Positions 18,199 to 35,453 of a DNA stretch of 36,781 nt are shown here, one piece after another (the first letter of the stretch is position 1; each line of letters opens with the position of its first letter). The position numbers and the translations under genes are program-made. A model generated the notes under the pieces. That model had not been told where the DNA came from, ran no database searches, and saw only the letters and a list, made by a program, of their open reading frames with translations. Source of the stretch: Myxococcales bacterium (lineage in GTDB: Bacteria; Myxococcota; Myxococcia; Myxococcales; Anaeromyxobacteraceae); NCBI GenBank assembly GCA_021818285.1, contig JAKAEO010000014.1, forward strand, positions 1-36,781. Reading direction: 5' to 3'.

Positions 18199-18218
18199 CC
18201 GGCCGGCCCGGCGGTCAG
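18195..18218. terminator. Hairpin formed by the stop regions of ppk1 and the porin gene
   Basis: A 7-base-pair inverted repeat (CTGACCG / CGGTCAG) with a ten-base loop fills the space between two convergent genes. The stop codon of ppk1 lies in the left arm and that of the porin gene in the right arm. There is no T-run on either side, so at best it is a bidirectional, non-canonical terminator or transcript-end stabiliser. Confidence 0.35.
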
Positions 18219-19915
18219 TACCGCGCCTCGAGCGAGGCCATCACCGACCCGCCCCAGCCCGTGGTGGCGCCCGCGCCCTGCGGGATCTCGACCCGCCCCA
18301 GCCCGGTGAGCCGGAAGCGCAGCCAGGCGGCGAGGTCGGAGACCGCCGCCAGGGAGAGGCCGGCGGCGTGCTCGGCCGGGAGCGGCGAGGTGCGGTCGTC
18401 CATGGTCCAGCTCAGCCGGGCGAGCAGCCGGGTGCGGCGGCCGAGGTCCAGGTCGCCCTGCAGCCAGGCGTTGCGGCCGGCGTAGCTGCCCAGCTCCTCG
18501 GCGTAGCCGGCCGAGGCGCCGCCGAAGCGGCCGAGCAGCCGCGGCGCCGCCACCTCGGGCCCGGCCCAGGTGTGGGAGAGGCCCGAGTCGAGGTCCCGCC
18601 CGGTCCCGCCGGTGGCGCGCAGCACCAGCCAGCCGATGCGGTCCCAGGAGAAGCTCCCGGTGGCCTGGCGGGTCCGGCCCGGCCAGAGCGAGGGGGCCGC
18701 CACGTCGGGCAGCCGCGAGTCGTCGTAGCGGAAGCCGCCGTGGAAGGAGAAGAGGCCGGGCTGGAACCAGCCCAGGTCGGCGCGCGCCGCGTCCAGCTTG
18801 CCCGGCGCCGCGTAGTCGCCGGTGCCGAAGCGGGCCTGGAGCCCGACGTCGAGCCGGCGCGCCACCCACGCCTGGGCGGTGGTCTCGGCCTCGATCCGGC
18901 TCTTCGACCCCGGGAGCCGCACCCAGGCGACGCGCCCCTCGTTGCGCAGCTGCGTGCTCCCGCCGGCGACGCCGTCCACCGCCCAGTAGGCGCCGCCGGT
19001 GGCCCGGTCGGTCCCGGGGGCGGTGGTGAGCGGGTCGGGCACGGCGCCGCCGAAGAGGCCGAGCTCCGCGCCGCGCCGCGGCCGCCAGCCGGCCTGGATG
19101 CCGTCGAAGGAGGAGCCGCCCGGCACGAGCCAGGGGAGCACGCGGCCGGCGGCGAAGCGGTAGCGGGAGCCGGGCTCGGCGAAGGAGAGGGAGGCCTCCC
19201 GCACCCAGAGCTGCGCCTTCCGCCCCGGCTCGAAGCGCTCGGTGGGCGAGGCGGCCGAGCGGGCCATGGCGGTGAGGTCGAGGTCGAGCCGCGCCCCGCG
19301 CCAGACCTCGGCGCCGTGGGACTGGGCATAGACCTGCTCCTGGTGGACCGCCTGGGCGTCGGAGGAGAGCCAGGCGAAGTGGGCGTAGCCGACGTCGTTG
19401 CGCCGCAGCCGGTCGAGCGGCTCCACCACCCGGGTGGAGGTGAAGTCCACCGGGACGAAGGCCACCGCCTGCGAGGCCGCGAGGCGGCGCGCCTCCTCGG
19501 CGGCGGAGGGGATGGGGGGGAGCCGGGCCGGGAGCGAGCCCGCGGCCCTCGGGCTCACCGGGAAGGTGTCGCCGGGCCGCATCCCCTGGCCGGTGCAGGT
19601 GGCGTTGCGGTCGGCGAGCAGCTCGACGGTGCAGCTGCCGGCCGGCTCCCCCTTGCGCCGCAGGGCGACCACCTGCCCGGCGCGCAGGCCGTCGAGCGCG
19701 CCGGCGTCGAGCCAGGCGCGGCCGCGCTGGACGGTCCGCACCGTGCCCACCTCGTCGAGCGGCCGCAGCGGCGCGGCGCGGGCCGCGAAGGGCGCCGCGG
19801 CGCCGGGCTGGAGGCCGGCCAGCGAGGCGATCCCCCGCTTGCCGGCCGCGAGCGCCGGGGCGGCGGCGAGCAGCAGGGCGGCCACGAGGAGGAGGCCGAT
19901 GGTCTCGCGGCTCAT
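18215..19915 (-). CDS. Outer-membrane beta-barrel of a porin-cytochrome conduit
   Basis: Predicted outer-membrane protein of 566 residues. A signal peptide (about 1-24, ending PALAA) precedes an N-terminal soluble part (about 50-125) with an SH3-like pattern (GTVRTVQRGRAWLDAG, LRAGQVVALRRKG) and two Cys. The remaining 400 or so residues alternate hydrophobic and polar positions, with many aromatic strand ends (YRFAAGRVLPW, LGLFGGAVPD, FSFHGGFRYDD, RLLARLSWTMDD), and end in the aromatic Tyr expected of an outer-membrane barrel. No CxxCH haem motif is present. It is the last gene of the cytochrome operon, one base overlapping the octahaem gene, so it probably holds a cytochrome across the membrane as MtrB or OmbB porins do. 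It shows no sequence I recognise as MtrB itself. Confidence 0.7.
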   Translation of the reverse strand: MSRETIGLLLVAALLLAAAPALAAGKRGIASLAGLQPGAAAPFAARAAPLRPLDEVGTVRTVQRGRAWLDAGALDGLRAGQVVALRRKGEPAGSCTVELLADRNATCTGQGMRPGDTFPVSPRAAGSLPARLPPIPSAAEEARRLAASQAVAFVPVDFTSTRVVEPLDRLRRNDVGYAHFAWLSSDAQAVHQEQVYAQSHGAEVWRGARLDLDLTAMARSAASPTERFEPGRKAQLWVREASLSFAEPGSRYRFAAGRVLPWLVPGGSSFDGIQAGWRPRRGAELGLFGGAVPDPLTTAPGTDRATGGAYWAVDGVAGGSTQLRNEGRVAWVRLPGSKSRIEAETTAQAWVARRLDVGLQARFGTGDYAAPGKLDAARADLGWFQPGLFSFHGGFRYDDSRLPDVAAPSLWPGRTRQATGSFSWDRIGWLVLRATGGTGRDLDSGLSHTWAGPEVAAPRLLGRFGGASAGYAEELGSYAGRNAWLQGDLDLGRRTRLLARLSWTMDDRTSPLPAEHAAGLSLAAVSDLAAWLRFRLTGLGRVEIPQGAGATTGWGGSVMASLEARY

Positions 19916-20901
19916 CAGTTCTTCACTCCGTGGCAGTCGGTGCAGCAGCTGACCTGGCTGGAGCCCGCGGGCTTCGGGTAGGTGCAGGCGTTGGCCGGCG
20001 GCCCCACCGACCAGTCCTGGGCCCAGGGGCCCGCGGTGCCGGAGGGGCCGACGGCGTTCGGGAAGAGCGGCGGGACGCTGCCGTGGCAGCTCCAGCAGCG
20101 CACCGCCGAGCCGGCGTTCCCGTGCTTGCCGTCCCAGGGCCCCGCCGAGGCGAAGCCCGGCGGGCCGGGGCGGGAGCCGTGGTCGACCACGTGGAGCACC
20201 AGGTTGCCGGCGCCCGCCGAGGGGGCCATCGCCGTCGGGTCGTGGCAGCGCATGCAGTCCCTGGGCGCGGGGGAGGCCGGGTAGTCGAGCACCAGGGCGT
20301 GCCGGGTGGCGAGGTCGGGCGGCGGGAACACCCCGACGAAGGGTGGCGTGTTGGTGTGGCAGGCGACACAGGCCAGCTGGTCGTACCGCACCGCGTTGCT
20401 CCGGCTGGTGGTGATCGTGATGTCGGTGGTGGCCGGCCCGGAGGTGAGGTGGCAGACGCTGCAGGCCCGGTTGTGCTTGGTGCCGGCGCCGATCGGGAAC
20501 TTGGTGTGGTTGAGCGCGCTGTAGGCCATGCCCTGCGGGTGGCACTGGATGCAGAAGTCGGTCCGGGGCGGGACGGCGTCCCGGCTGGCGACGTAGGCGG
20601 CGTTCCCGGTGTGCGGCGCCATGTCGTCGGGGGACGGGGCCAAGGGGTCCCAGGCATGGGCGAAGTGGCAGCTCCGGCAGTCCACCATCTTCCGGAACGC
20701 ATCGGCGACGTGGCACGACGCGCAGTAGATCGCCTGTCCGCTGGCGATGGAGCCGACCGGCGTCGGCTCGTGGGCGGTGCCGGCCAGCGGGAACCAGGTG
20801 TGGCCGGCGATGCCCGGGTCGGTGTTCCAGGGAGCGGCGTCCTTCCCGGCGCCGCAGGCCGCGGCCAGGAGCAGCGGAAGCAGGAGGGGGAGTGGTCTCA
20901 T
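19915..20901 (-). CDS. Octahaem c-type cytochrome lipoprotein
   Basis: Exported cytochrome of 328 residues with a lipoprotein signal (lipobox LAAAC, lipidated Cys16). Eight CxxCH haem sites have first Cys at residues 60, 75, 117, 147, 178, 216, 269 and 320; the last is four residues before the C-terminus. Many extra His residues could serve as distal ligands. The spacing between haems is wide (15-53 residues) with Pro/Gly/Ala-rich loops, unlike compact periplasmic cytochromes, and resembles surface cytochromes of metal reducers. Lipidation and co-transcription with the barrel gene suggest it sits at the outer membrane, on the periplasmic or outer face. ATG overlaps the decahaem gene stop by four bases. 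Confidence 0.88.
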   Translation of the reverse strand: MRPLPLLLPLLLAAACGAGKDAAPWNTDPGIAGHTWFPLAGTAHEPTPVGSIASGQAIYCASCHVADAFRKMVDCRSCHFAHAWDPLAPSPDDMAPHTGNAAYVASRDAVPPRTDFCIQCHPQGMAYSALNHTKFPIGAGTKHNRACSVCHLTSGPATTDITITTSRSNAVRYDQLACVACHTNTPPFVGVFPPPDLATRHALVLDYPASPAPRDCMRCHDPTAMAPSAGAGNLVLHVVDHGSRPGPPGFASAGPWDGKHGNAGSAVRCWSCHGSVPPLFPNAVGPSGTAGPWAQDWSVGPPANACTYPKPAGSSQVSCCTDCHGVKN

Positions 20902-21809
20902 CGGGTGCTCCTCGCCCCCCTCAGGGCGCCGGTCGCGGTCGAGAACCGGTGGCATTCGTAGCACTTCAGCTCGCCGTTCGGCTGGCAGGCGGTGGAGTCC
21001 ATGCCGAGCACCGGCGGGTGCCCTCCCGGGCAGTTCCCGCCGAAGTGGCAGTCGGTGCAGGAGAGCGGCGGCGTCGAGCAGGTGGCGATGGCCCGGGGCA
21101 CGCTGGCGCGGCCGGAGTGGCACCTGGCGCAGGCGATCCCGGCGTGGGGCCCGGTGGCGATGGAGAAGCACTGCTCGTGGGCCGGGAAGAAGCCGTTGGC
21201 GAAGCGCCAGGGCGTGTGGCACTCCTTGCAGTCGGCGGTGAAGCCGGTGTGGTCGAGCACCGCCTGCGCCCGCGCCAGGTCGCCGGAGTGGCAGTCGCGG
21301 CACTGCTTCACCGACCGCGCGAAGCCGCGGTTCAGCTGGTTCCCGTGGCACTCCTCGCAGGCGATGAAGGCGTGGCGCCCCACCAGCGGGAAGCCCACCC
21401 GGCGGTGGGCGTCGGCGTCGAAGCGGCTCCGCCAGGAGCGCTCGTCGTGGCAGCCCTGGCAGCGGCTGCCGAGCGTCCCGCGGTGCGGGTCGCGGTGGCA
21501 GGCGTCGCAGGCGTGGGAGAGCGGTCGCTCGAAGTCGACCGGGTGGCACTGCTTGCAGCCCACCGTGCGGTGCTCGCCGGCGAGCGGGAAGCCGGTCCGC
21601 TCGTGGGCGAAGGCCACGTCGCCCCAGCGCTCGGTGGTGTGGCAGCGGTCGCAGCGCGTGTCGCCGCCGTGGCCGGCCGGCGCGGCCGGCCGCAGGTCCA
21701 GGGGGCGGGCGGCCGGCGCCGCGGCGCGGGCCGGGCCGGCGGCGAGGGCCAGCAGGAGGATCGCGGGGAGCGCGGCCGGGGCCGCGCCAGCGGTGGCAGG
21801 CGTTCTCAC
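20898..21809 (-). CDS. Decahaem c-type cytochrome
   Basis: Exported cytochrome of 303 residues. The N-terminal signal peptide spans about 1-31 (ending ARAAA). Ten CxxCH sites start at Cys 53, 85, 101, 117, 151, 170, 194, 227, 251 and 283. The first five haems follow the same repeat as the 20-haem protein encoded just upstream (F-x-H...FPL-x-G-x-H...C-x-x-CH, and CxxCHRDPHRG). Further Cys near 244, 260 and 275 lie outside haem motifs and may form disulfides. The GTG start overlaps the previous stop (GTGA). No anchor is visible, so it is probably soluble in the periplasm or bound to the porin, carrying electrons between the 20-haem protein and the lipoprotein. Confidence 0.88.
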   Translation of the reverse strand: MRTPATAGAAPAALPAILLLALAAGPARAAAPAARPLDLRPAAPAGHGGDTRCDRCHTTERWGDVAFAHERTGFPLAGEHRTVGCKQCHPVDFERPLSHACDACHRDPHRGTLGSRCQGCHDERSWRSRFDADAHRRVGFPLVGRHAFIACEECHGNQLNRGFARSVKQCRDCHSGDLARAQAVLDHTGFTADCKECHTPWRFANGFFPAHEQCFSIATGPHAGIACARCHSGRASVPRAIATCSTPPLSCTDCHFGGNCPGGHPPVLGMDSTACQPNGELKCYECHRFSTATGALRGARSTR

Positions 21810-23617
21810 GGCTCGAACCCCCGGAAGGCGCCCCGGTGGAAGTCCACGTGGCAGCCCTGGCAGGCGCGCGGGACGCCCCGCCAGCGCCGCAGCACCGCGC
21901 CGTCCGCCAGCCTCACGCCCGGGACCTCGGGGTGGCAGGCCCGGCACTCGAGCTTCGCGTGCTTGCCGGTGAGGCGGAAGTCGGTGAAGGGCGGGGCGTG
22001 GACGAACTTCGTCCGCTTCTTCCAGTCGTCGGTCCCGTGGCAGCGGGCGCAGTCGGTCGGCCGGGCCGGCCCGGCGGCGAACTGGGCGGCGTGCGGGTCG
22101 GCGTGGCAGCCGGCGCAGGTGACCGGCACCCCGGCGTAGCGGACCACCGGCGGGCCGCGCGGCCCCTTCTGCGAGGGGTGGCAGGAGGCGCAGGCGGTGC
22201 TGGCGTGCTTCCCCTCCAGCGGGAACTTCGTGTCCCGGGCGTGGTCGAAGCGGGTCCGGGCGAAGCTCGAGGTCTCGTGGCAGCCGGCGCAGCCCTTCGC
22301 GCCCGCCCGCACGTCGAACTGGCCGCCGTGCGGGTCCAGGTGGCAGGTGTCGCAGCGCGAGAGGTCGCCCGAGAAGGCGTAGACCGCGAGCGAGAGGCGC
22401 ACCGGCCGGCCGCGCCGGTGGAGCTCCGCGCGCGCCGCCGCCGGGAAGCGGTCGGCCACGCGGGGATCGCTGCGGTGGCAGGCGGGGCAGGCCACCGCCC
22501 GGTGCGCCCCCTCCAGCGGGTAGCGGGTGTGCTGGTGGTCCTCGAGCGAGAAGCCGGAGACCTCGAAGGTGGCGACGGTGTGGCAGCGGTCGCAGTGGTT
22601 CCCGTCGGCCCGGGCGCGCCGCATCTGGCCGGCGTGGGCGTCGGCGTGGCAGTCGGTGCAGGCGCCGAAGGGGAGGCCGCGGAACTGCGCGGGCGTGCCG
22701 GGGAAGGGGCCGTGGCAGGCCTGGCACTTCACCAGCGCGTGCGCGCCCTCCAGCCGGTAGCGGGTCCTGTCGTGGAAGGCCCGGCTCTCGCCGCCGGCGG
22801 CGCGGACCGTCTTCCAGTCGGCCTCGGTGTGGCACCTCGCGCAGCTCTCGCCGAAGCGGCCCTGGTGCGGGTCCTTGTGGCAGTCGGCGCAGGATCCGTG
22901 CTGCACCGGCTTGAAGCGCAGGTAGGAGGGGAGCTTCGGCTGCAGGCCGACGTGCTCCACCTGGTCCACCGTCCGGGGGTGGCACTTCTCGCAGGCCACC
23001 CGGGCGTGCTTGCCGAGGAGCGGGTAGGGCGTCTTGGCGTGGTCGAAGCCGGGCGCCGGCTTGAAGCCCCGCTCGTCGTGGCACTTCTGGCAGTCGGTCC
23101 CCACCTGGCCGCGGTGCTCGTCGAAGTGGCAGGCGGCGCAGGCGGTGGGCGCGCCCAGGAAGGTGCGCCGCGCCGGGTGCTTGTCGAGCAGCGCCCGGAT
23201 GGCCGGCTCCTGGACCAGCCGCCGCTCGTGGCACTTCCCGCAGGCCACGGCGGCGTGCTTGCCCCGGAGCGGCACGCCGGTCCGGGCGTGGTCGAAGCCC
23301 CTCTCGCCGCCCGGCCCCCAGTCCACCAGGGCGAAGCCACGGCCCTGGTGCTCGTGGTGGCAGGTCCAGCAGTCGCGCTCCTTCCCCTGGAGCCGCCCGT
23401 GCAGCCCCTTGCCGGACGCCAGGCGCCCCTGCAGCTCCTCGTGGCAGCCCAGGCAGGCCGACTGGGCCAGCTGCTGCCCCTTGGGGTGGCACCTGGTGCA
23501 GTTGGAGATCCCCTCCAGGCCGGCGTGGGCCCGGGTCAGCTCGCCGGGCGAGAAGAGGTCGGCCCGGGCGGCCGGGGCGAGCGCCAGCAGGGCGGCGGCG
23601 AGGGCGGCCCGGGCCAT
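21806..23617 (-). CDS. 20-haem c-type cytochrome with tandem trihaem repeats
   Basis: Large exported cytochrome of 603 residues with a signal peptide cleaved near residue 19 (ARA). Twenty CxxCH sites begin at Cys 40, 55, 83, 126, 160, 176, 209, 243, 259, 298, 320, 342, 377, 422, 443, 476, 501, 523, 558 and 586. From residue 160 the pattern repeats about every 80-100 residues as three haems: CxxCH-x-D-x-H-x-G, then CxxCH...(F/W), then F-x-H...(Y/F)-x-L-x-G-x-H-A...C-x-x-CH. Five full copies are visible and a sixth starts at 586. This suggests a linear nanowire-like haem chain through the periplasm. Its ATG overlaps the oxidoreductase stop by one base (TGATG). Confidence 0.92.
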   Translation of the reverse strand: MARAALAAALLALAPAARADLFSPGELTRAHAGLEGISNCTRCHPKGQQLAQSACLGCHEELQGRLASGKGLHGRLQGKERDCWTCHHEHQGRGFALVDWGPGGERGFDHARTGVPLRGKHAAVACGKCHERRLVQEPAIRALLDKHPARRTFLGAPTACAACHFDEHRGQVGTDCQKCHDERGFKPAPGFDHAKTPYPLLGKHARVACEKCHPRTVDQVEHVGLQPKLPSYLRFKPVQHGSCADCHKDPHQGRFGESCARCHTEADWKTVRAAGGESRAFHDRTRYRLEGAHALVKCQACHGPFPGTPAQFRGLPFGACTDCHADAHAGQMRRARADGNHCDRCHTVATFEVSGFSLEDHQHTRYPLEGAHRAVACPACHRSDPRVADRFPAAARAELHRRGRPVRLSLAVYAFSGDLSRCDTCHLDPHGGQFDVRAGAKGCAGCHETSSFARTRFDHARDTKFPLEGKHASTACASCHPSQKGPRGPPVVRYAGVPVTCAGCHADPHAAQFAAGPARPTDCARCHGTDDWKKRTKFVHAPPFTDFRLTGKHAKLECRACHPEVPGVRLADGAVLRRWRGVPRACQGCHVDFHRGAFRGFEP

Positions 23618-25836
23618 CACTTGAGACCGTACCCCAGGTAGAGCGAGAAGCCGATGTGGGCGGCGATGGCCAGCACCAGGAAGCCCGCCAGGGAGGCGTG
23701 GAAGATCCGCCAGGCCCGCATCAGCGACTTCAGCGACCGGAAGAACGCGATCTGCAGCCGCAGCCGCTCGCAGACCCTGAAGTCCTCCCGGAAGGCGCGG
23801 CGCGACTCCTGGTCCGGGAACAGGGAGGCCACGCGGCGCAGCGCCAGGCGCGAGCGCAGCGACTGCAGCGGCAGCGTCACCAGCGAGTGGAGCAGCGAGC
23901 CCGGCGGCAGCGGCGCCGTCACCGAGGCGAAGAGCCGCTTCACCGGGACGGGGTTCTCGACCATCTCCAGCAGCGGCTCCACCTCGGCGCGGGCCCGCAC
24001 GAAGCTGGCCTGCAGGTCCTCCAGCTCCAGGGCGTGTTCGGCGGCCGCCGGCACCAGGCTGAAGATGTACCGGCCGACGATGCCGGTGGCGACCACCACG
24101 GCCAGCGCGGCGGTGGTCCCGGTGGCGAGCAGGTTCCGCGACTGGAAGGCGGCGTGGAAGGCGATCACCAGGGGGCTCATGAAGCCGACGAAGACGTGGA
24201 AGGCCAGCCAGATCCGCATGTCCCCGACTCCCGAGAGCCAGCGCACCCGCTTGCGCGCCGCGTAGAGGAAGTTGGAGAGCATGAAGGCGGTGGCGGCGAT
24301 GCCCACCCCGTGGCCCCAGTGGCTGGCCGGCTTCAGGAGGGGGTGGAGCGGCGAGCGGAACCGCTCGGCCTGCGGCAGCAGGTAGTACCGCCAGCCGTGG
24401 AGCGCCAGGAGCACCAGGATGGCCGCGCCCAGCACCGCGAAGAGCGTCTCGATCCGGTGCTCCTTGCGCTTCGCGGCCATCTCCCGGTCGAGGGCGTGCG
24501 ACCGGGTGGCGCCCTTCCGCGGCGACCCGGGCGCCTCGCCGTGGTAGCGGCGCATGCCCACCCCGGCCTTCTCCAGGAACTCGGTGGGCAGCTCGCCGCC
24601 GGCGCACACCACCACGAAGTCGTTGGGGACGCGCAGCGGCTTCCCCCCCGCCTCCAGCTCCACCTCCTGCTCGCCGATCCGCTTCACCTGCGACCCGGGG
24701 AGCAGGGTGAGCCGCCGCTTCGCCGCCTGCGCCTCCATGTCCACCCGGTTCGGCTCGCGGCACTTCGGGGCGTCGCCGCGGAAGGAGAGCCACACCTGGG
24801 CGTCCGACTCCCGCGCCAGCTGGCAGGCGGCCTCCACCCCGGCGTCGCCGGCGCCGACCACCAGCACCTTCGAGCCGGCGTACTGCTCCGGCTCGATGAG
24901 CCGGTAGACCACCTTGGCCTGCTCCTCGCCGGGCACTTGCAGCTTGCGGGGCGAGCCGCGGCGGCCGATGGCCAGCACCACCTTGGCGGCCCGCACCGGC
25001 CCGGCGGTGCTCTGCACCGTGAAGTCGCCGTCGCGGCCCTCGATCCCGGTGACCTTGACCTTCTCCTCCACCCGCAGCGAGGCCTTCTGGATGACCTTGT
25101 CCAGCGTGGCGAGCAGGTCCTCCTTGGAGATGCGCCGCTTCCCGAACTTGCCCCAGAACGGCAGGTTCACCGTCTCGGTCATCACCACCTTGCGGCGCGG
25201 GAAGTGGAAGATGGTCCCACCCACCGAATCCTGCTCCAGCAGCCGGTAGGTGAGCCCGTGGTGCGCGAGCCCGAGGGCGGCGGCGATGCCTGCCGGTCCC
25301 GCCCCCACCACGCAGACGTCCACCCCGCCCGCCGGCGCGGCCGGCTTCCCCCGCGCCAGGTGGTCGGCCACCTGCAGCCCCTGGCGGATGGCGTTCTTGA
25401 TGAGCCCCATCCCGCCGAGCTCGCCCACCACGTGGACGCCGGGGCGCGAGGACTCGAAGACCTCGTTCACCTCCGGCAGGTCGATGCCCCGCTTGGCGGT
25501 GCCGAAGACCAGGGTGATGGCCGACACCGGGCACTCGGCGGCGCAGCGGCCGTGGCCGACGCAGTGCTGGCCGTGGACCAGCGCGGCGGTGCCGTTGACG
25601 ATCCCCAGGATGTCCCCCTCCGGGCAGGACTTCAGGCAGGCCAGGCTGCCGATGCAGATGTCCGGGTCGATGATCGGGTGGAGCGAGCGCGGCAGGTTGC
25701 GCTCCAGCTCCTCGGCCTCGCGGAGCGCCTCGGCGTCGGCGCGCTGGCGGCGCCAGCGGTTCACCGCGTAGCCGCCGGCGAAGAGCGCGGCCGAGCTCAC
25801 GGCCGCCGAGGCGATGATGGTCTGGCTGAAGTCCAA
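23617..25836 (-). CDS. Inner-membrane FAD/NAD(P)-Fe-S oxidoreductase with cytochrome-b-like C-terminus
   Basis: A 739-residue fusion. A short N-terminal membrane helix (about 6-24) precedes a ferredoxin-like domain with C61-x5-C67-x3-C71-P and C92-x5-C98-x3-C102-P. A pyridine nucleotide-disulfide-type flavoprotein follows, with a GAGPAG FAD loop at 178-183 and a GAGDAG nucleotide loop at 328-333. The C-terminal 280 residues have about five membrane helices (464-482, 506-527, 541-562, 574-594, 710-735) carrying His 480, 506, 509, 547, 561, 713 and 727, candidates for b-haem ligands. It could pass electrons from cytoplasmic NAD(P)H to the periplasmic cytochromes encoded next. The TTG start has AGGGA nine bases upstream; the frame stays open to 26004, with other possible starts. 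I know no named homologue with this exact use. Confidence 0.8.
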   Translation of the reverse strand: MDFSQTIIASAAVSSAALFAGGYAVNRWRRQRADAEALREAEELERNLPRSLHPIIDPDICIGSLACLKSCPEGDILGIVNGTAALVHGQHCVGHGRCAAECPVSAITLVFGTAKRGIDLPEVNEVFESSRPGVHVVGELGGMGLIKNAIRQGLQVADHLARGKPAAPAGGVDVCVVGAGPAGIAAALGLAHHGLTYRLLEQDSVGGTIFHFPRRKVVMTETVNLPFWGKFGKRRISKEDLLATLDKVIQKASLRVEEKVKVTGIEGRDGDFTVQSTAGPVRAAKVVLAIGRRGSPRKLQVPGEEQAKVVYRLIEPEQYAGSKVLVVGAGDAGVEAACQLARESDAQVWLSFRGDAPKCREPNRVDMEAQAAKRRLTLLPGSQVKRIGEQEVELEAGGKPLRVPNDFVVVCAGGELPTEFLEKAGVGMRRYHGEAPGSPRKGATRSHALDREMAAKRKEHRIETLFAVLGAAILVLLALHGWRYYLLPQAERFRSPLHPLLKPASHWGHGVGIAATAFMLSNFLYAARKRVRWLSGVGDMRIWLAFHVFVGFMSPLVIAFHAAFQSRNLLATGTTAALAVVVATGIVGRYIFSLVPAAAEHALELEDLQASFVRARAEVEPLLEMVENPVPVKRLFASVTAPLPPGSLLHSLVTLPLQSLRSRLALRRVASLFPDQESRRAFREDFRVCERLRLQIAFFRSLKSLMRAWRIFHASLAGFLVLAIAAHIGFSLYLGYGLK

Positions 25837-26308
25837 GGTGTCGCGTCCCTGCTGCCCGTGGGTTCGAGGGTCGCACGCCGTCTTCCGGACCGGAAGCACC
25901 CAAACCTGCCTATCTGCGGGGGGATCGGACAAGCTCTGCTTGGGTCGTCGTACATCGCGCGCGCTGTGGGGAATCCGACTCCGCGTGCGGGTCGGGCGCG
26001 CCACGCGGAATCCTCCCTCAGTGAAATCGGTCCAGCGCCGGCGCCGGACCCGGTCGCGCGCGGGCGGCCCTCGCGCCGCGCCAACCTCCTGGGATCACGC
26101 GCTGCGTTGTGTTAGGAAGTGCCGTTTTCACGCGGGGACCCGTACGGGGAGCCGGGTCGCGCGCCGGTGGGCCGCCGTCTTGCAGCGGCAGCGGATTCCA
26201 AAGCACCACCTGACGGCCAGAACGCAAAAACCGCGTTTTCGGATTGATGGCGCGCAAGTCTGACCAGCCGGGGAGGAAGCGCTTCCCCGGTGTACAAGGG
26301 AGCGGACC
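25837..26308. other. 472-base divergent control region
   Basis: This gap lies between the divergent oxidoreductase and activase/reductase fusion genes, and is somewhat richer in A/T than its surroundings. It contains an interrupted palindrome CAAGC-TCT-GCTTG (25930-25942), a perfect 10-base palindrome CCCGTACGGG (26139-26148), a short A-run/T-run pair (26225-26239) and the hairpin at 26268-26290. I see no convincing -35/-10 pair or -24/-12 sigma-54 site on either strand. An alternative start for the oxidoreductase could use up to 168 bases of it. No tRNA or small RNA is evident. Confidence 0.5.
26268..26290 (+). promoter_or_regulatory. Palindromic hairpin in the leader of the activase/reductase fusion gene
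   Basis: A perfect 12-base palindrome GGAAGCGCTTCC (26275-26286) lies within a larger repeat with flanks CCGGGGA (26268-26274) and TCCCCGG (26284-26290). It ends 18 bases before the ATG at 26309, directly ahead of the ribosome-binding site AAGGGAG. It could be an operator dyad, or an mRNA hairpin controlling translation. There is no T-run, so it is not an intrinsic terminator. Confidence 0.45.
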
Positions 26309-29300
26309 ATGGCCCGATTCATCGGGATCGACGTCGGCGCCGAGACCATCAAGGTGGTCGAGCTGGCCCAGCAGGGGCGCGAGCTGGTCTGCGCACGGCG
26401 CGAGGTCGTCGACCACCACAAGGACCCGGGCGCCGCGCTCCTCGGCCTGCTCCGCGGCTGGTCGTGGGAGACGGTGGAGGGCGCCGCCGTCTGCGGGCGG
26501 CTGGGCCGGCAGGTGGCGCTGATGCGGGTCCCCGCCAAGCAGGCGCAGGCCGCCGGCTACCGCTTCCTCCACGGCCCGGACCCGGCCACCGTGGTCTCGA
26601 TCGGCAGCCACGGCTTCTCGGTGCTGGAGCTGCGCGAGGGCGGCACCGAGGTGTTCCGCGAGAACTCGCGCTGCGCCCAGGGCACCGGCAACTTCCTGCG
26701 GCAGCTGGTGGAGCGCTTCGACCTCACCGTGGAGCAGGCGGCCGAGCTGGCGGCCGGCGTCGACGAGGCGGCGCCGCTCTCGGGCCGCTGCCCGGTGATC
26801 CTGAAGACCGACATGACCCACCTCGCCAACAAGGGCGAGGGCAAGGACCGGATCCTGGCGGGGCTGCTCGACGCCATCGCCGAGAACGTCCAGGTGCTGG
26901 TGAAGCCGGCGGTGGCCCCGAAGCGCATCGTGCTGGCCGGCGGCGTCTGCCGCTCGCAGCGGGTGCGGGAGCACTTCCGGCGCTTCGCCGAGCGGCAGGG
27001 GATGGCGCTGCTCCCCGGCACCGCCGAGGACGGGCTGTTCCTCGAGGCCCTGGGCGCGGCGGTGACCGCCTCGGAGCACGGGCTGCGGGTCCCGTCGCTG
27101 GAGCGGCTCCTCGAGCCGGCGCACGACCACGCGCTGGAGAAGATCCCGGCCCTCTCCGCGGCGCTGGCCCGGGTGCGGCGCATGCCGGCGCCCCCGGCCC
27201 GCGAGCGGGAGGGCGCCCGCGACGTGCTGCTGGGCTTCGACATCGGCTCCACCGGCTCCAAGGCGGTGGCCCTGGACCTCGAGACCCGGGAGGCGCTGTG
27301 GGAGGGGTACCTGCGCACCAACGGCGACCCGGTGGGCGCGGCCCAGGCGCTGATGAAGCAGTTCCTCGACGGGCCGGCGGCGCTGCACCGGGTGCGCGGC
27401 TTCGGGGCCACCGGCTCGGGGCGCGAGATCGTCGGCTCCCTGCTCGCCACCTGCTACGGGCGCGACGCCGTCTACGTGCTCAACGAGATCGCCGCCCACG
27501 CCACCGGGGCGCTGCACCTCGAGCCGCGGGTCGACACCATCTTCGAGATCGGCGGCCAGGACGCGAAGTACATCCGGCTGGCCGAGGGCAGGGTGGTGGA
27601 CGCGGCCATGAACGAGGCCTGCTCCGCCGGCACCGGCTCCTTCATCGAGGAGCAGGGCAAGCGCTTCAGCGGCGTGGAGAGCGTGGTGCAGCTCGGCCAG
27701 CTGGCGCTCCAGAGCGACTCGGGCGTGGCGCTGGGCCAACACTGCTCCATCTTCATGGCCGAGATCATCGACGAGGCGGTGGCCTCGGGCGTGGAGCGCG
27801 AGCGCATCGTCGCCGGCATCTACGACTCGGTGATCGCCAACTACCTGAACCGGGTGAAGGGCAGCCGCTCGGTGGGCCAGGTGATCTTCTGCCAGGGGAT
27901 GCCCTTCGCCTCCGACGCGCTGGCCGCGGCGGTGGCGCGGCAGACCGGCGCCGAGGTCATCGTCCCGCCCAAGCCCGGGCTGATGGGGGCCATCGGCATC
28001 GCCCTGCTGGCCATCGAGGACCTGCCGCTCGCCGGGCGGGAGCCGGCCGACGGCCGCACCTTCCTCGCCGCCCGGGTGGAGAAGAAGGACAACTTCGTCT
28101 GCAACTCGACCCAGGGCTGCGGCGGCGCCGGCAACAAGTGCCGCATCGACCGGCTCACCACCGTGGTGGCCGGCGAGAAGCAGCGCTTCACCTGGGGCGG
28201 CGGCTGCTCCCTCTACGACAAGGGCACCCGCAAGAAGAAGCTGCCCGACCTCTCGCCCGACCCCTTCCGGGAGCGGGCCGAGGCGGTGCAGCGCATCATC
28301 GAGCAGGTGAGCGTCCGCCGCGGCAACCCGGTGGTGGCGATCACCGACGAGTTCCAGCTCAAGGGGCTCTTCCCCTTCTTCGCCACCTACCTGCACCGGA
28401 TGGGGTTCGACGTCACCGTGGCCACCGGCGCCGACCGCAAGGCGCTGAAGCGCGGCATCGAGGAGGCCAACGTCCCCTTCTGCGCGCCGATGCAGCAGTA
28501 CCACGGGCTGGTGGCCGACATGGCCGGCGGCAAGCCCGACTACCTGTTCCTGCCCATGCTCCGGGAGATCCCCCGGGTGCGCCAGGAGCGCTACTCGACG
28601 GTCTGCCCCATCGTGCAGGGCGCGCCCGACATGCTGAAGTGGGACCTGGGCGCGGGCCTGGCGCCGAAGATCGTCTCGCCGGTGGTGGACATGGGCGAGG
28701 GGATGCTCGAGTCCCCGATCTTCCTCCAGGCCTGCGAGAAGCTGGCCGCCGAGCTGGGCGTGAAGCGCGAGACCACCTGGCGCGAGGCCTGGGCGGCGGC
28801 GCGCGCGGCCCAGCTCTCCTTCGACGCCGCGCTGCTGGCGTCGGGCCGGCGCGCCCTCGACTTCTGCGCCGACAAGGGCGTCACCCCGGTGGTGGTGCTG
28901 GGGCGCAGCTACACCATCCACAACGACGTGCTGAACTCCAACGTCCCGGCCATCCTCCGCGAGCAGGGCTCCATCGCCATCCCGGTGGACTGCCTGCCGC
29001 TGCCGGACGACGCGCCGGTCTTCGACGACGTCTTCTGGGGGTACAGCCAGCGCATCCTGCGCGCCGCCTGGCACGTGCGCCGGGTGCCGGGCCTCTACAG
29101 CATCTTCTGCTCCAACTACTCCTGCGGCCCGGACAGCTTCACCGTCCACACCTACGCCTGGCTCATGGAGGGGAAGCCCTTCGCCATCATCGAGACCGAC
29201 GGCCACTCCGGCGACGCCGGCACCAAGACCCGGGTCGAGGCCTTCCTCCACTGCGTGCGCGAGGACCTGCGGGCCGCCTCGCGCCAGGAGCCCAAGGACC

Positions 29301-30628
29301 ACCGCCGGCTCCACGTCCGGCCGCAGCGCATCACCGACATCGTCCGGCGCAAGGAGCGGGTGCTGATCCCGCCCATGGGGCCGGAGACCCACGCCGCCGC
29401 CGCCGCCATCCGCGGCCTGGGCGTGCCGGCCGAGGTGCTTCCGCTGCCCACCCGGGACACGCTGCGCCAGGGGCGGCGCCACACCTCGGGCAAGGAGTGC
29501 CTGCCGCTCACCGTGACGCTGGGGAGCGTGCTGGAGCGGCTGGAGGCGTCGAAGGACACCGACGAGAAGTTCCTGTTCCTGATGCCGGGCTCCTGCGGCC
29601 CCTGCCGCTTCGGCGCCTACCGCGACCTGCACCACCTGATCCTCGACCGGCTGGGCTGGGGGAGCCGCGTCGGCATCTGGTCGCCCCCCTTCGGCGACTA
29701 CTTCGCCGGCCTGCCCTCCGGCTTCTCGGCCATCGTCTTCACCGGCCTCACCGCCCTCGGCATCCTCGAGGACGCGCTCCACGACGTCCGGCCGGTGGAG
29801 ACCGCGGAGGGGGCGGCCGAGGCGATCCACGCCCGCTACTCCGCCCAGCTGGTCCGCCTCATCGAGACCGCGGCCGCGGGCGACCTGTCGCCGGCCAAGG
29901 TGCTCTACGAGGCGGCCACCGGCCGGGGCTACGGCATCCCGGCGCTGGTGGGGCGCTTCGCCCGCGAGCTGGCGCTGGTGAAGGGGAAGCGCGAGGTGCC
30001 GAACGTCCTGGTGGTGGGCGAGATCTACGTGCGCTCCGACCCCTTCGCCAACGACTTCGTCGCCCGGGCGCTGGAGAAGCGGGGCATCCGCGCCAAGCTG
30101 GAGCCGGTCTCCGAGTACCTCCAGTACTCCGACTACATCGCCCACAAGCGCGGGCTGAAGTCGGGGATCCCCGACCGCGTCGAGCACTGGGTGCGCAAGC
30201 GGCTCTTCGCCGTGACCCACCACGAGGCCGCCGGGCCGCTGGGCTGGCCGGCCCACGCCACCATCCCCGAGGTCTTCCAGGCCGCCTCCGACTACGTCCG
30301 CGAGGAGCTGGAGGTGGAGACCCCGCTCACCATCGGCGTGCCGGTCCGCGCCTGGCGCAACAAGGAGATCGACGCCACGGTGAGCGTGGGGCCGCTGGAG
30401 TGCATGCCCAACAAGATCGCCGAGGCCCAGTTCTGCCACGTGGCCGAGAAGGAGGGGCTGCTCTCGCTCTCCCTCTCCCTGAACGGCGACCCCATCGACC
30501 CCGAGGTGCTGGACAACTTCGCCTTCGAGGTCCACCAGCGCTTCAAGCGGCGCCGCGCCGCCGCCGCCGCGCCGCCCCCGGCGGTCCCGTCCGAGGGGGA
30601 GGAGCTGGTGCCGGCCACCGAGGGCTGA
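26309..30628 (+). CDS. Fused dehydratase-activator (BadF/HgdC-type) ATPases and HgdB-like reductase
   Basis: A 1,439-residue cytoplasmic protein. Two ASKHA ATPase modules of the 2-hydroxyacyl-CoA dehydratase activator type lie at about 1-265 (GIDVGAETIK) and 308-575 (GFDIGSTGSK). Each has the two Fe-S ligand Cys of HgdC: C122 and C161 in the first, C438 (ACSAGTGSF) and C479 in the second. A linker follows with C598, C604, C611 and C633. The C-terminal 750 residues resemble the DUF2229/HgdB-like reductase region, with Cys in PFCAPMQQ, STVCPIVQG, CSNYSC, KECLPL and GSCGPC. By family knowledge this is an ATP-driven machine that lowers the potential of an electron for a hard reduction. The substrate is unknown. 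Fused proteins of this kind occur in other anaerobes. GGGAG lies seven or eight bases before the ATG. Confidence 0.9.
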   Translation: MARFIGIDVGAETIKVVELAQQGRELVCARREVVDHHKDPGAALLGLLRGWSWETVEGAAVCGRLGRQVALMRVPAKQAQAAGYRFLHGPDPATVVSIGSHGFSVLELREGGTEVFRENSRCAQGTGNFLRQLVERFDLTVEQAAELAAGVDEAAPLSGRCPVILKTDMTHLANKGEGKDRILAGLLDAIAENVQVLVKPAVAPKRIVLAGGVCRSQRVREHFRRFAERQGMALLPGTAEDGLFLEALGAAVTASEHGLRVPSLERLLEPAHDHALEKIPALSAALARVRRMPAPPAREREGARDVLLGFDIGSTGSKAVALDLETREALWEGYLRTNGDPVGAAQALMKQFLDGPAALHRVRGFGATGSGREIVGSLLATCYGRDAVYVLNEIAAHATGALHLEPRVDTIFEIGGQDAKYIRLAEGRVVDAAMNEACSAGTGSFIEEQGKRFSGVESVVQLGQLALQSDSGVALGQHCSIFMAEIIDEAVASGVERERIVAGIYDSVIANYLNRVKGSRSVGQVIFCQGMPFASDALAAAVARQTGAEVIVPPKPGLMGAIGIALLAIEDLPLAGREPADGRTFLAARVEKKDNFVCNSTQGCGGAGNKCRIDRLTTVVAGEKQRFTWGGGCSLYDKGTRKKKLPDLSPDPFRERAEAVQRIIEQVSVRRGNPVVAITDEFQLKGLFPFFATYLHRMGFDVTVATGADRKALKRGIEEANVPFCAPMQQYHGLVADMAGGKPDYLFLPMLREIPRVRQERYSTVCPIVQGAPDMLKWDLGAGLAPKIVSPVVDMGEGMLESPIFLQACEKLAAELGVKRETTWREAWAAARAAQLSFDAALLASGRRALDFCADKGVTPVVVLGRSYTIHNDVLNSNVPAILREQGSIAIPVDCLPLPDDAPVFDDVFWGYSQRILRAAWHVRRVPGLYSIFCSNYSCGPDSFTVHTYAWLMEGKPFAIIETDGHSGDAGTKTRVEAFLHCVREDLRAASRQEPKDHRRLHVRPQRITDIVRRKERVLIPPMGPETHAAAAAIRGLGVPAEVLPLPTRDTLRQGRRHTSGKECLPLTVTLGSVLERLEASKDTDEKFLFLMPGSCGPCRFGAYRDLHHLILDRLGWGSRVGIWSPPFGDYFAGLPSGFSAIVFTGLTALGILEDALHDVRPVETAEGAAEAIHARYSAQLVRLIETAAAGDLSPAKVLYEAATGRGYGIPALVGRFARELALVKGKREVPNVLVVGEIYVRSDPFANDFVARALEKRGIRAKLEPVSEYLQYSDYIAHKRGLKSGIPDRVEHWVRKRLFAVTHHEAAGPLGWPAHATIPEVFQAASDYVREELEVETPLTIGVPVRAWRNKEIDATVSVGPLECMPNKIAEAQFCHVAEKEGLLSLSLSLNGDPIDPEVLDNFAFEVHQRFKRRRAAAAAPPPAVPSEGEELVPATEG

Positions 30629-30676: not shown

Positions 30677-31447
30677 TCAGCGGGCCAGCCACAGGTCGCG
30701 GGCCAGCTTCGCCACCAGGGCCAGCACCACCAGCAGCACCACCCGCCGCACCAGCACGTCGCCGCGCCGCACCGCCAGGTGGGCGCCGAGGTGCCCGCCG
30801 ACGAGCTGCGCCGCCGCCATGGGCAGGGCCAGGCGCCAGAGGACGGTGCCCTTCCAGGCGAAGAGCAGCATGGCCGCGAGGTTGGAGGCGAAGTTCACCA
30901 CCTTGGCGGCGGCCGAGGCCCGGGTGAGCGGGTCGCCGAGCAGCCCGACGAAGCCGACGATGAGGAAGGTGCCGGTGCCGGGGCCGAAGAAGCCGTCGTA
31001 GGCGCCGAGGAGGAAGGACCAGGCGGCGGCGGCCGGGAGGAGCCAGGCCGCGGGGAGCCGCGCCTCGGCGCGGGGCGGCCCGCGCCGCAGCCCGACGAAC
31101 AGCGCCGCCCCGGCCAGCATCAGGAGCACCAGCGGCCGCAGCACCTCCGGGCGGATCAGCAGCACCAGCCCGGCGCCGAGCAGCGAGCCCACGAAGCCCG
31201 CCGGGAAGCTCACCCGCGCCCGGCGCGGCTCGACCATCCCGGCGCGCCGGAAGGCGAGCAGCGCGGAGAAGGCGCCGAAGACCGACTGCCCCTTGTTGGT
31301 CCCGATCACCAGGTGGGGCGGCAGCCCGGCGGCCACCAGGAAGGGGACCGTCACCAGCCCGCCGCCGCCGGCGATGGCGTCCACCACCCCGGCGACCAGC
31401 GCCACCCCCGCCAGCAGCAGGATCTCGGCGAGGCCGGGCGCGCTCAC
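30677..31447 (-). CDS. TauE/SafE-family anion permease
   Basis: Inner-membrane protein of 256 residues with about seven or eight hydrophobic helices. The N-terminal half has the family pattern GVVDAIAGGGGLVTVPFL and VIGTNKGQ, and the second half repeats it as GAYDGFFGPGTGTFLIVGF and ASAAAKVVNFASN. This internal duplication is diagnostic of TauE/SafE (sulfite/sulfonate or organoanion export). The GTG start overlaps the stop of the M64 peptidase gene by four bases (GTGA), so the two are co-translated, though no shared function is obvious. The substrate cannot be told from sequence. Confidence 0.9.
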   Translation of the reverse strand: MSAPGLAEILLLAGVALVAGVVDAIAGGGGLVTVPFLVAAGLPPHLVIGTNKGQSVFGAFSALLAFRRAGMVEPRRARVSFPAGFVGSLLGAGLVLLIRPEVLRPLVLLMLAGAALFVGLRRGPPRAEARLPAAWLLPAAAAWSFLLGAYDGFFGPGTGTFLIVGFVGLLGDPLTRASAAAKVVNFASNLAAMLLFAWKGTVLWRLALPMAAAQLVGGHLGAHLAVRRGDVLVRRVVLLVVLALVAKLARDLWLAR

Positions 31448-32835
31448 CTCCCGCCCGCCCGCGGGCCGGCGTAGAGGTCGATGAGCCGGTCCAGGGCCGA
31501 GCGGCACACGGCGCAGAAGGGGACGTCGTCCCGGCTGAACATCACGCAGTCCACCTGCGGCCGGTAGAAGCCCTTGGCGGCGTAGTTCGCCCCCTCGAAG
31601 GCGCCGACCTGCCCGGCGTGGGGCTCGGCGCCGAGGCGCGCCGTCTCCTCCTGCTTCTGCTGCAGGAAGAGCGCGTCCATCTCCGCCTCCGGCGCGTTGC
31701 GGGCCCGGATGGCCTTGCGCCTCTCCCCGAAGGCCTTGCCGCGCCTCTCGTACCCCTCCTCGTCCCAGGGGGTGGGCAGCGGGACCCCGGGCGTCGCCAG
31801 CGCCTTCCACTTCAGCGCCGCCGGGTCGAGGAGGGCGGTGACGTTCGGCTCCCAGGGCTCGACGCGCTCGGCGGGGAGGTAGGCGGTGTCGGAGGTGAAG
31901 TACTCGTCGGCCAGCCCGGCCAGGTGGTGGCCCAGCTCGTGGACGAAGACGTAGGGGGCCCAGAGGCTCCCGGCGGCCACGGTGGCGTACTGGCCGAAGA
32001 TGCCGCCGCCGCCGTAGGTCTCGCCGTCCACCAGGATGGCCAGCGCGTCGTACGGGGCCCGGCTGGCGACCTCGCGCAGCCGCCGGTTCTCGAAGGTGAG
32101 GACGTAGCGCTCGCTGCCGAAGGCGTCGTAGGTCGCGCCCAGGGGGCTGGCCCGGTGGAGGCCGGTGGAGGGGCGGGAGACGCCCGGCTCGGCCGCCGGC
32201 GGGCAGATGGCCCGGACGGCGATGGCGTCGGCGCGGGAGCGGAAGGGCTCGACCGCGAGCAGCGCCGCGGTGAGGCGGCGCGCCTGGGCCTCGAAGGTGC
32301 GGCAGCCGGCGGCGGTGTAGCCGTCGCCGAGCAGCAGCAGGTCGAGCGCCCGCTCCGGCGGCCGCTTCACGTGGATCTCCACCACCGGCGCCGGCGCCGG
32401 AGGCAGCGAGGGGTCGACGGTGGGGTCCTTCGGGTCCACCAGCAGCGACCAGACCTCGCGGAAGGCGTTGTGCCGGTCGCGCTTCTTCACGATCACCTGC
32501 ACCGGCCCGGCCGGCGCCGGGAAGCGCAGCGACTCGGAGAATGTCCGGGTCGCCTCCCGGGCCTCGGCGGTGGTCTCCCACTCGCCGTAGATCGAGGAGA
32601 AGCCGCGCGAGTAGAGGAGCCGGTTGGTGCCGCGCTCCCGGACCTCGAAGAGGTACTTCCCGAGGTCGAGGTCGTCCACCGGCCGGTCGGGGTTGCCGGG
32701 GAAGGGCAGCGGCTCCAGCACCAGCCGGTCGAGCGCGAAGCGCTCCTCGGTGGCGCTGCCGGTGTGGAAGTAGTCCACGCGGAAGGTGCGCGGCGGGGCG
32801 GCGAGCGCCAGGGCGGCCAGGATCAGGGCGTTCAT
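31444..32835 (-). CDS. M64-family (IgA peptidase-like) secreted zinc metallopeptidase
   Basis: Protein of 463 residues with a short signal peptide (about 1-13). An N-terminal beta-rich domain (about 18-150) with YGEWETTAEA-type sequence precedes a catalytic domain with LLLLGDGYTAAG (167-177), as in M64 enzymes. The zinc site is H299-E300-L-G-H303, followed by D310-E311, in the family form HELGHHLAGLADEY. A Met-turn-like DCVMFS lies near the C-terminus, with FCAVC after it. M64 members cleave extracellular proteins, and in myxobacteria such enzymes could serve predation or nutrition. The gene ends inside the TauE start codon. Confidence 0.85.
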   Translation of the reverse strand: MNALILAALALAAPPRTFRVDYFHTGSATEERFALDRLVLEPLPFPGNPDRPVDDLDLGKYLFEVRERGTNRLLYSRGFSSIYGEWETTAEAREATRTFSESLRFPAPAGPVQVIVKKRDRHNAFREVWSLLVDPKDPTVDPSLPPAPAPVVEIHVKRPPERALDLLLLGDGYTAAGCRTFEAQARRLTAALLAVEPFRSRADAIAVRAICPPAAEPGVSRPSTGLHRASPLGATYDAFGSERYVLTFENRRLREVASRAPYDALAILVDGETYGGGGIFGQYATVAAGSLWAPYVFVHELGHHLAGLADEYFTSDTAYLPAERVEPWEPNVTALLDPAALKWKALATPGVPLPTPWDEEGYERRGKAFGERRKAIRARNAPEAEMDALFLQQKQEETARLGAEPHAGQVGAFEGANYAAKGFYRPQVDCVMFSRDDVPFCAVCRSALDRLIDLYAGPRAGGR

Positions 32836-34598: not shown

Positions 34599-34685
34599 AT
34601 CGGGACCGGCCGGCTCCGCCTTTCCCGCGCCCTTCCGGCCCGGCCGGTGGATCTCCCACCCCGGAACGTGCGAGAAGCCTGCCCC

Positions 34686-35453
34686 GTGCTCCGCAAGATC
34701 ATCGAGATCGACGAGTCGAGGTGCGACGGCTGCGGCGACTGCATCCCCTCCTGCGCCGAGGGCGCCCTGGCGGTCGTGGACGGCAAGGTGAAGCTGGTCC
34801 GCGACCTCTTCTGCGACGGCCTGGGCGCCTGCCTGGGCACCTGCGAGAAGGGGGCGCTGAAGGTGGTGGAGCGGGAGGCCGAGGCCTTCGACGAGGACGC
34901 GGTCCACGCGCACCTCGCCACCCGCGAGCGCCACCCACGGCCCGGCCTGCGGGCGCTCCCGGTGGACCCGGGCGGCCCCGGCGCCGGCTGCGCCGGCACG
35001 CGGCCGGTGGAGCTCGCCCCGCGGCGCGGCCTCACGGTGGTGCCGAACGTGCCGGTCGCCCTGCCGGCGCGGCCCGCCCGGGGCGGCAGCCGGCTCGGGC
35101 AGTGGCCGGTGCAGCTCGCCCTGGTGAGCCCCGGCGCGCCGTACTTCCGCGACGCCGACCTGCTCGTCGCCGCCGACTGCGTCCCCTTCGCCTACGCGCG
35201 GTTCCACGACGACTTCCTGGCCGGGAAGCGGCTGGTGGTCGGTTGCCCCAAGCTCGACGACAACCGGGGCTACGTGGCGAAGCTCACCGAGATCCTGCGG
35301 CACGGCACCGTCCGCAGCGTCACGGTGGTGAAGATGGTGGTGCCCTGCTGCGGCGGCATCGCCATGGCGGCCCGCCAGGCCATCGCGCAGTCGGGCAAGC
35401 CGGTGCCGTACCGCGAGATCACCGTCGGGATCGACGGCGGCGTCGTCGCCTGA
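34686..35453 (+). CDS. Ferredoxin-like 4Fe-4S protein of unknown role
   Basis: Soluble protein of 255 residues. The N-terminal ferredoxin domain has one full motif C13-x2-C16-x2-C19-x3-C23 and one incomplete motif C43-x5-C49-x3-C53, in which the second Cys is Leu46 (FCDGLGACLGTC). The C-terminal half has conserved-looking Cys in ADCVPFAY, GCPKLDDN and MVVPCCGG, which might bind another metal centre. It resembles a widespread, uncharacterised ferredoxin family in anaerobes. The GTG at 34686 is chosen for the start MLRKIIEID and a GAGAAG sequence upstream; GTGs at 34647 and 34668 are less likely. The Fur-family regulator follows after 86 bases. Confidence 0.75.
   Translation: MLRKIIEIDESRCDGCGDCIPSCAEGALAVVDGKVKLVRDLFCDGLGACLGTCEKGALKVVEREAEAFDEDAVHAHLATRERHPRPGLRALPVDPGGPGAGCAGTRPVELAPRRGLTVVPNVPVALPARPARGGSRLGQWPVQLALVSPGAPYFRDADLLVAADCVPFAYARFHDDFLAGKRLVVGCPKLDDNRGYVAKLTEILRHGTVRSVTVVKMVVPCCGGIAMAARQAIAQSGKPVPYREITVGIDGGVVA

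Follow-up and report, generated by a model that had tools for sequence, protein, structure and literature searches.

A predicted single-chain ATP-driven iron-sulfur reductase encoded in a Myxococcales genome

Activator modules, linker and reductase halves

The stretch of DNA analysed here (36,781 nt of contig JAKAEO010000014.1 from a Myxococcales bacterium; hereafter, the window) carries a gene whose product is predicted to join an ATPase activator and a reductase in a single chain of 1439 amino acids (aa). Its open reading frame (ORF; 26309-30628, + strand, stop codon included) starts with ATG, has a third-position GC content of ~1.00 and received the top coding score in the window. A Shine-Dalgarno-like AAGGGAG (26296-26302, +), read from the sequence, ends 6 nt 5' of the ATG. 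The source genome, from the family to which Anaeromyxobacter belongs, is incomplete (318 contigs, 87% complete), and full-length orthologues of the protein in relatives showed 56-85% identity.

The N-terminal part was matched by activator profiles over two modules, one HgdC/BcrD-like (module 1, aa 1-262; 26309-27094, +) and one HgdC/BcrA-like (module 2, aa 300-578; 27206-28042, +). Specifically, Pfam BcrAD_BadFG matched two stretches of the protein (E 7.8e-41) and NCBIfam TIGR00241 likewise matched it twice. At the level of individual NCBIfam profiles, module 1 (aa 6-252) matched BcrD (TIGR02261) and module 2 matched BcrA (TIGR02259), while the scores for TIGR02259, TIGR02261 and TIGR03192 (83.6, 77.0 and 52.0 bits) fell far under the equivalog cut-offs of 578, 312.85 and 380.2 bits, respectively. 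When compared with PDB chains, the module 1 profile retrieved 4eht (E 2.7e-50) and 1hux (E 2.1e-42) and the module 2 profile retrieved the same entries (E 1.6e-54 and 2.5e-50); the activator DCCP-R of the double-cubane-cluster protein (DCCP; 7yyl) and MbdP/Q (9gai) were also found, and across 4eht, 1hux, 7yyl and 9gai chains C and D the matches of both modules ranged from E 1e-32 to 1e-54. The two modules are homologous to each other (hhalign E 1.1e-40). An AlphaFold (AF2) model of aa 1-660, built on 65 sequences, was predicted with confidence (predicted local distance difference test, pLDDT, 88.6; predicted template-modelling score, pTM, 0.85), and Foldseek matched it to activators of the ASKHA ATPase fold, including DCCP-R, at template-modelling (TM) scores of 0.82-0.88 of the target.

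The original prediction, made from the letters alone, had proposed two ATPase modules in one chain with the Cys pairs of HgdC, and the double Pfam match, the PDB profile matches and the AF2/Foldseek results bear this out. The alignment that it suggested as a check, against HgdC, BcrAD and double-cubane proteins, likewise gave matches to 1hux, to the BcrA and BcrD profiles and to DCCP-R 7yyl. All eight Cys that it named (122, 161, 438, 479, 598, 604, 611 and 633) were found at these positions in the translated ORF. In the module 1 profile, C122 and C161 (codons 26672-26674 and 26789-26791, +) align on Cys127 and Cys166 of HgdC (1HUX) with the predicted spacing of 39 in both proteins; C438 and C479 of module 2 (codons 27620-27622 and 27743-27745, +) align on the same HgdC pair with a spacing of 41. 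Given that the homologous HgdC and MbdPQ are dimers, we infer that modules 1 and 2 pair within the chain and that C122, C161, C438 and C479 would hold one bridging [4Fe-4S] cluster.

To describe conservation, the window protein was aligned over its full length of 1439 aa with 82 homologues from many phyla (83 sequences). It belongs to a monophyletic group of 21 proteins (support 100; identity roughly 50-85%), hereafter the window clade, which comes mostly from Anaeromyxobacteraceae and other Myxococcota but includes two Acidobacteriota and one Verrucomicrobiota. Module 2 of the window protein has canonical nucleotide-binding motifs (GFDIGSTGSK and EIGGQDAK); G415, G416, Q417, D418 and K420 (GGQDxK) are invariant in 83/83 sequences, and the GxDxGS motif is kept across the alignment with rare deviations. 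Module 1 retains the phosphate-1 motif (GIDVGAETIK), whereas SIGSHGFSV replaces GGQDxK, and the GGQD phosphate-2 motif is gone from module 1 throughout the window clade. Since module 1 lost GGQD and module 2 kept it, the pseudo-dimer is, judging by these motifs, probably asymmetric in function. A like asymmetry is seen in the heterodimeric activator of 3-methylbenzoyl-CoA reductase, in which MbdP has IGGQTMK and MbdQ has GGQD. Loss of the ATP-binding residues from both modules, which the original prediction had named as a reason to abandon it, is therefore not what the alignment shows: module 1 is degenerate and module 2 is intact. One long-branch sequence, from Deltaproteobacteria HGW-15, has a canonical DIGGQDAK in module 1 and may represent an ancestral symmetric form.

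A four-Cys linker (aa 590-640; 28076-28228, +) with C598, C604, C611 and C633 follows module 2 and is predicted to form a metal or [4Fe-4S] site. All four Cys are present in 83/83 sequences, the second (C604 here) at variable spacing: C-x2-C-x3-C in 31 sequences, C-x6-C-x3-C in 23, C-x5-C-x6-C in 21 (a count equal to the membership of the window clade) and other patterns in 8. We could not equate the linker with a known Pfam domain, as that of the window protein had no match and those of relatives gave weak, mutually inconsistent ones (Fer4_16, Molybdop_Fe4S4, Zn ribbon).

The linker had been predicted to lead to an HgdB-like part. The linker itself held up, but the part behind it is not a single HgdB-like unit: it consists of two homologous HgdA/HgdB-like halves and is itself a fused pair. 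Half 1 (aa 665-1012; 28301-29344, +; C725, C766 and C939) was recognised by Pfam and hhalign and comprises DUF2229 and an HGD-D-like end, and half 2 (aa 1013-1415; 29345-30553, +; C1064, C1099 and C1365) was recognised as HgdA/B-like by hhalign. DUF2229 was matched at aa 677-895 (E 1.4e-37 with the whole protein, 2.8e-36 in the scan of half 1). The HGD-D profile (PF06050) reached half 1 at E 0.006 and 16.6 bits, under the cut-off of 28.4, and left half 2 unmatched. Compared with each other by hhalign, the halves aligned with a probability of 97.4 (E 1.4e-11, 285 columns), and this alignment put Cys on Cys (C725 on C1064, C939 on C1365). Against a conventional HGD-D profile, hhalign found similarity at the segment of the third Cys in both half 1 (E 2.6e-4) and half 2 (E 1e-5).

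An AF2 model of aa 293-1419 (pLDDT 89.8, pTM 0.90) gave each half the same order of elements, namely an alpha/beta part of four strands, helices, and a second alpha/beta part of four strands. A predicted helix starts one residue after each of the six reductase Cys (model positions 433, 474, 647, 772, 807 and 1073). The subunits BzdN and BzdO are described as alpha/beta, helical and alpha/beta in order, and the cluster site of BzdN is lined by helix N-termini (PMC11971306). In the model, the element order and the placement of Cys before helices agree with both features; the support for a reductase fold comes from this agreement rather than from a fold match. All six Cys are invariant in 83/83 sequences, and the three at helix starts in each half are predicted to form a three-Cys [4Fe-4S] set.

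Conservation and distribution of the family

Thirteen Cys columns are invariant in 83/83 sequences (122, 161, 438, 479, 598, 611, 633, 725, 766, 939, 1064, 1099 and 1365). Expressed against the window protein, 13/26 Cys are invariant compared with 40/1413 non-Cys residues (Fisher p = 3.6e-13). Together with the second linker Cys, which is also present throughout, 14 Cys occur in 83/83 sequences, grouped as four in the activator, four in the linker and three in each reductase half. Given this excess of invariant Cys and the constant presence of the second linker Cys, the Cys pattern in the alignment is not due to chance.

The window clade is marked by its C-x5-C-x6-C linker, the degenerate GGQD of module 1, QGM in place of QGG in module 2, and C528 and C982, both of which were found in 21/21 members. 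Besides C982, half 1 of the window clade has extra Cys at C853 (20/21) and C895 (18/21), which are mostly absent from distant members; in a by-eye alignment C895 matches the fifth double-cubane Cys of MbdN. A sister clade of the window clade, with six proteins from Myxococcota, Thermodesulfobacteriota and Actinomycetota, shows unusual third-Cys motifs in half 2 (e.g., SCWGCDN); its module 2 has QGK rather than QGG, and it possibly acts on a different substrate.

Our scan of GTDB genomes recovered at least 587 related loci. Among the matches listed, hosts included Myxococcota, Spirochaetota, Bacillota, Thermotogota, Actinomycetota and Ignavibacteriota, as well as Thermodesulfobacteriota, Acidobacteriota and Verrucomicrobiota, and DUF2229 was also found in Thermotoga maritima, Lactococcus lactis, Thermus composti and Deinobacterium chartae. 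A search at the phylum level gave a strong match in 39/174 genomes. Some genomes, such as that of Anaeromyxobacter oryzae, hold a window-clade protein together with a distant paralogue. No relative of the protein was found on viral contigs. In the window protein, two BcrAD_BadFG modules precede DUF2229 in a single chain of ~1400 aa; it belongs with the proteins of that length annotated by Pfam DUF2229 and NCBIfam TIGR00241 ('acyl-CoA dehydratase activase'), which share its architecture and the same 14 Cys. The architecture is therefore that of a widespread, long-annotated family, and is neither a local oddity nor unique to the window.

Proposed function and alternative readings

Homology, Cys conservation and confident structure models agree on an activator pseudo-dimer joined to a reductase. 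On this basis we consider, with a probability of roughly 70%, that the protein is a single-chain ATP-driven iron-sulfur reductase that combines an activator of the HgdC/BadF type with a reductase of the HgdAB/BcrBC/DCCP superfamily and passes ATP-gated electrons to the reductase clusters. The idea that the donor and acceptor of an ATP-driven low-potential electron step lie in one polypeptide was already part of the original prediction and gains support from the same three lines of evidence. With two activator modules and two homologous reductase halves, the chain is the one-piece counterpart of the four-subunit plan of benzoyl-CoA reductases.

The class I benzoyl-CoA reductases (BcrCBAD, BzdNOPQ and MbdONPQ; PDB 9gai/9gba, 8s02) likewise have two activator-type ATPases, one of them altered at GGQD (MbdP) as module 1 is here, and two homologous reductase subunits. 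They differ in being built from four separate chains. The window protein, moreover, is without the double-cubane six-Cys set and has the extra four-Cys linker. A further shared trait is the three-Cys [4Fe-4S] cluster of their catalytic subunit, to which the predicted three-Cys sets of the halves correspond. With the 2-hydroxyacyl-CoA dehydratases (HgdC/HgdAB and HadI/HadBC; PDB 1hux, 4eht, 3o3m) it shares the HgdC Cys pair and the ASKHA ATPase fold, and the three conserved Cys of each half are comparable to those of HadBC, but in those systems the activator is a separate homodimeric protein. The dehydration of 2-hydroxyacyl-CoA is redox-neutral and requires a 2-hydroxyacyl-CoA. DCCP with DCCP-R (PDB 6eno, 7yyl) also couples an activator to an HgdB-like reductase, for which the physiological substrate is unknown too; DCCP is, however, a homodimer in which each subunit has six Cys and holds an [8Fe-9S] cluster, compared with three invariant Cys in each half here. 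The mechanism class (activator-driven dehydratases, benzoyl-CoA reductases and DCCP) is already known, and the four-in-one chain corresponds to an existing annotation family.

In the mechanism that we propose, a ferredoxin or flavodoxin, acting as the external low-potential donor, would load the bridging [4Fe-4S] cluster, possibly via the metal site of the linker. ATP would be bound and hydrolysed mainly at module 2, where the site is intact. This would alter the geometry of the modules, and single electrons at strongly negative potential would be pushed to the three-Cys [4Fe-4S] clusters of both halves, with the substrate being bound and reduced at one of them. Fusion would fix a 1:1 stoichiometry and spare the docking step between separate components. 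The gene has no conserved partners, which makes a pathway-dedicated intermediate a less likely substrate than a small molecule or a CoA ester produced elsewhere.

Several observations weigh against this reading. In sequence, the halves resemble proven reductases only weakly and over just ~50-65 residues; PDB sequence searches with each half separately gave chance-level matches only, and the top 50 Foldseek matches of the aa 293-1419 model were to activators or other ATPase folds, with no reductase-fold match among them. Module 1 is without the GGQD phosphate motif, and ATP turnover may for this reason take place at one site only. No donor gene conserved beside the activator-reductase gene was found in the relatives' flanks. 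In the literature that we searched, which did not extend to the primary DCCP papers, we found neither a functional study or assay nor other biochemical data for any family member.

The nearness of the activator part to DCCP-R raises the question of whether the chain could be a double-cubane enzyme, in which a DCCP-like [8Fe-9S] reductase acting on small molecules (e.g., acetylene, azide or hydrazine) is joined to its activator. DCCP (7yyl_C, 6eno), together with a HadC chain, was the best reductase-only PDB match, although at a weak E of 0.05-0.07, and the extra C895 of half 1 mentioned above would suit such a cluster. A double cubane draws six Cys from one subunit (PMC11971306), whereas each half here has three invariant Cys, and positions like those of MbdN number at most four of six in half 1 and three in half 2. 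From the Cys counts, a double cubane in the reductase halves is therefore unlikely, and we regard this as the least probable of the alternatives. A role within a CoA pathway of the host, as a fused benzoyl-CoA-type reductase or 2-hydroxyacyl-CoA dehydratase, would explain why the overall plan equals BcrA-D plus BcrB-C, with module 1 matching BcrD and module 2 BcrA. The same genome does hold conventional HGD-D reductases, several of them beside activator genes, on three of its contigs, and this provides a CoA-ester context. Those separate-subunit sets also mean that the single-chain protein is not simply the benzoyl-CoA reductase of this genome. In line with the earlier claim that no dehydratase or acyl-CoA genes lie nearby, the window genes that we scanned included no dehydratase, acyl-CoA, CoA-ligase, hydratase or thiolase-type gene. 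Considering also that all scores were far under the equivalog cut-offs and that the relatives are scattered over very diverse lineages, we think a host CoA-pathway enzyme improbable.

About equally improbable, in our view, is that the chain reduces a protein or cofactor instead of a small substrate and serves as a reductive activator of another metalloenzyme, comparable to RACE/Ram for corrinoids or to the activase-type component of the MCR activation complex. The modules match methanogenesis marker 15 (TIGR03286, E 8.8e-26), the missing conserved neighbours would allow a general housekeeping role, and DUF2229 occurs in metabolically very different organisms, including Lactococcus lactis and Thermotoga maritima. 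Nonetheless, the protein has two reductase halves of its own with conserved cluster ligands, which would be superfluous in a pure activator.

The reading as a single-chain ATP-driven reductase can be taken one step further. It is possible, and we suggest it only tentatively, that the chain is a complete one-polypeptide super-reductase in which electrons enter at a site of their own, pass an ATP-gated activator cluster and reach two catalytic clusters, and whose substrate lies outside the known benzoyl-CoA, hydroxyacyl-CoA and DCCP chemistry. If true, it would be a minimal self-contained functional counterpart of the Fe protein/MoFe protein pair of nitrogenase, present in many phyla. To the best of our knowledge, few systems use ATP to activate electrons to very low potential, and those described rely on separate components that must first meet. 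The one-chain form holds donor, gate and acceptor at a fixed ratio, and stoichiometry, gating and electron flow from cluster to cluster are directly testable with a single purified protein. Members of the family are spread widely among anaerobic lineages, and the question of their substrate is tractable.

Neighbouring genes

The divergent neighbour of the activator-reductase gene (23617-26004, -) encodes, according to Pfam, a ferredoxin-like 2x[4Fe-4S] and FAD/NAD(P) oxidoreductase with membrane segments. Downstream of it lies a gene for a 20-haem c-type cytochrome (21806-23617, -) with 20 CxxCH motifs and a match to Cytochrome_C7. The oxidoreductase is a possible electron partner of the single-chain protein. 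It was found together with the cytochrome near the window-clade gene in three close genomes only, and both were absent from the examined flanks of other relatives; recurrent clusters of flanking ORFs were scattered in distance and strand. Since only the oxidoreductase and the cytochrome recur, and in three close genomes, a dedicated partner gene is unsupported. A role in anti-phage defence was also considered and set aside, as PADLOC gave no match.

Further CxxCH-rich stretches were seen at ~19.9-21.8 kb, downstream of the 20-haem gene. They point to a multihaem cytochrome gene cluster (region 18215-23617, -) that would lie behind the FAD/FeS membrane oxidoreductase and is perhaps an extracellular electron transfer locus. 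On the other side, 4 kb beyond the activator-reductase gene, an ORF at 34647-35453 (+) has a 268-aa product whose N-terminal part carries two [4Fe-4S] ferredoxin motifs; this product is a possible low-potential electron carrier. A gene for a metallopeptidase of the M64 family (IgA peptidase-like) lies at 31444-32835 (-), adjoined by a TauE-family transporter gene (region 30677-32835, -).

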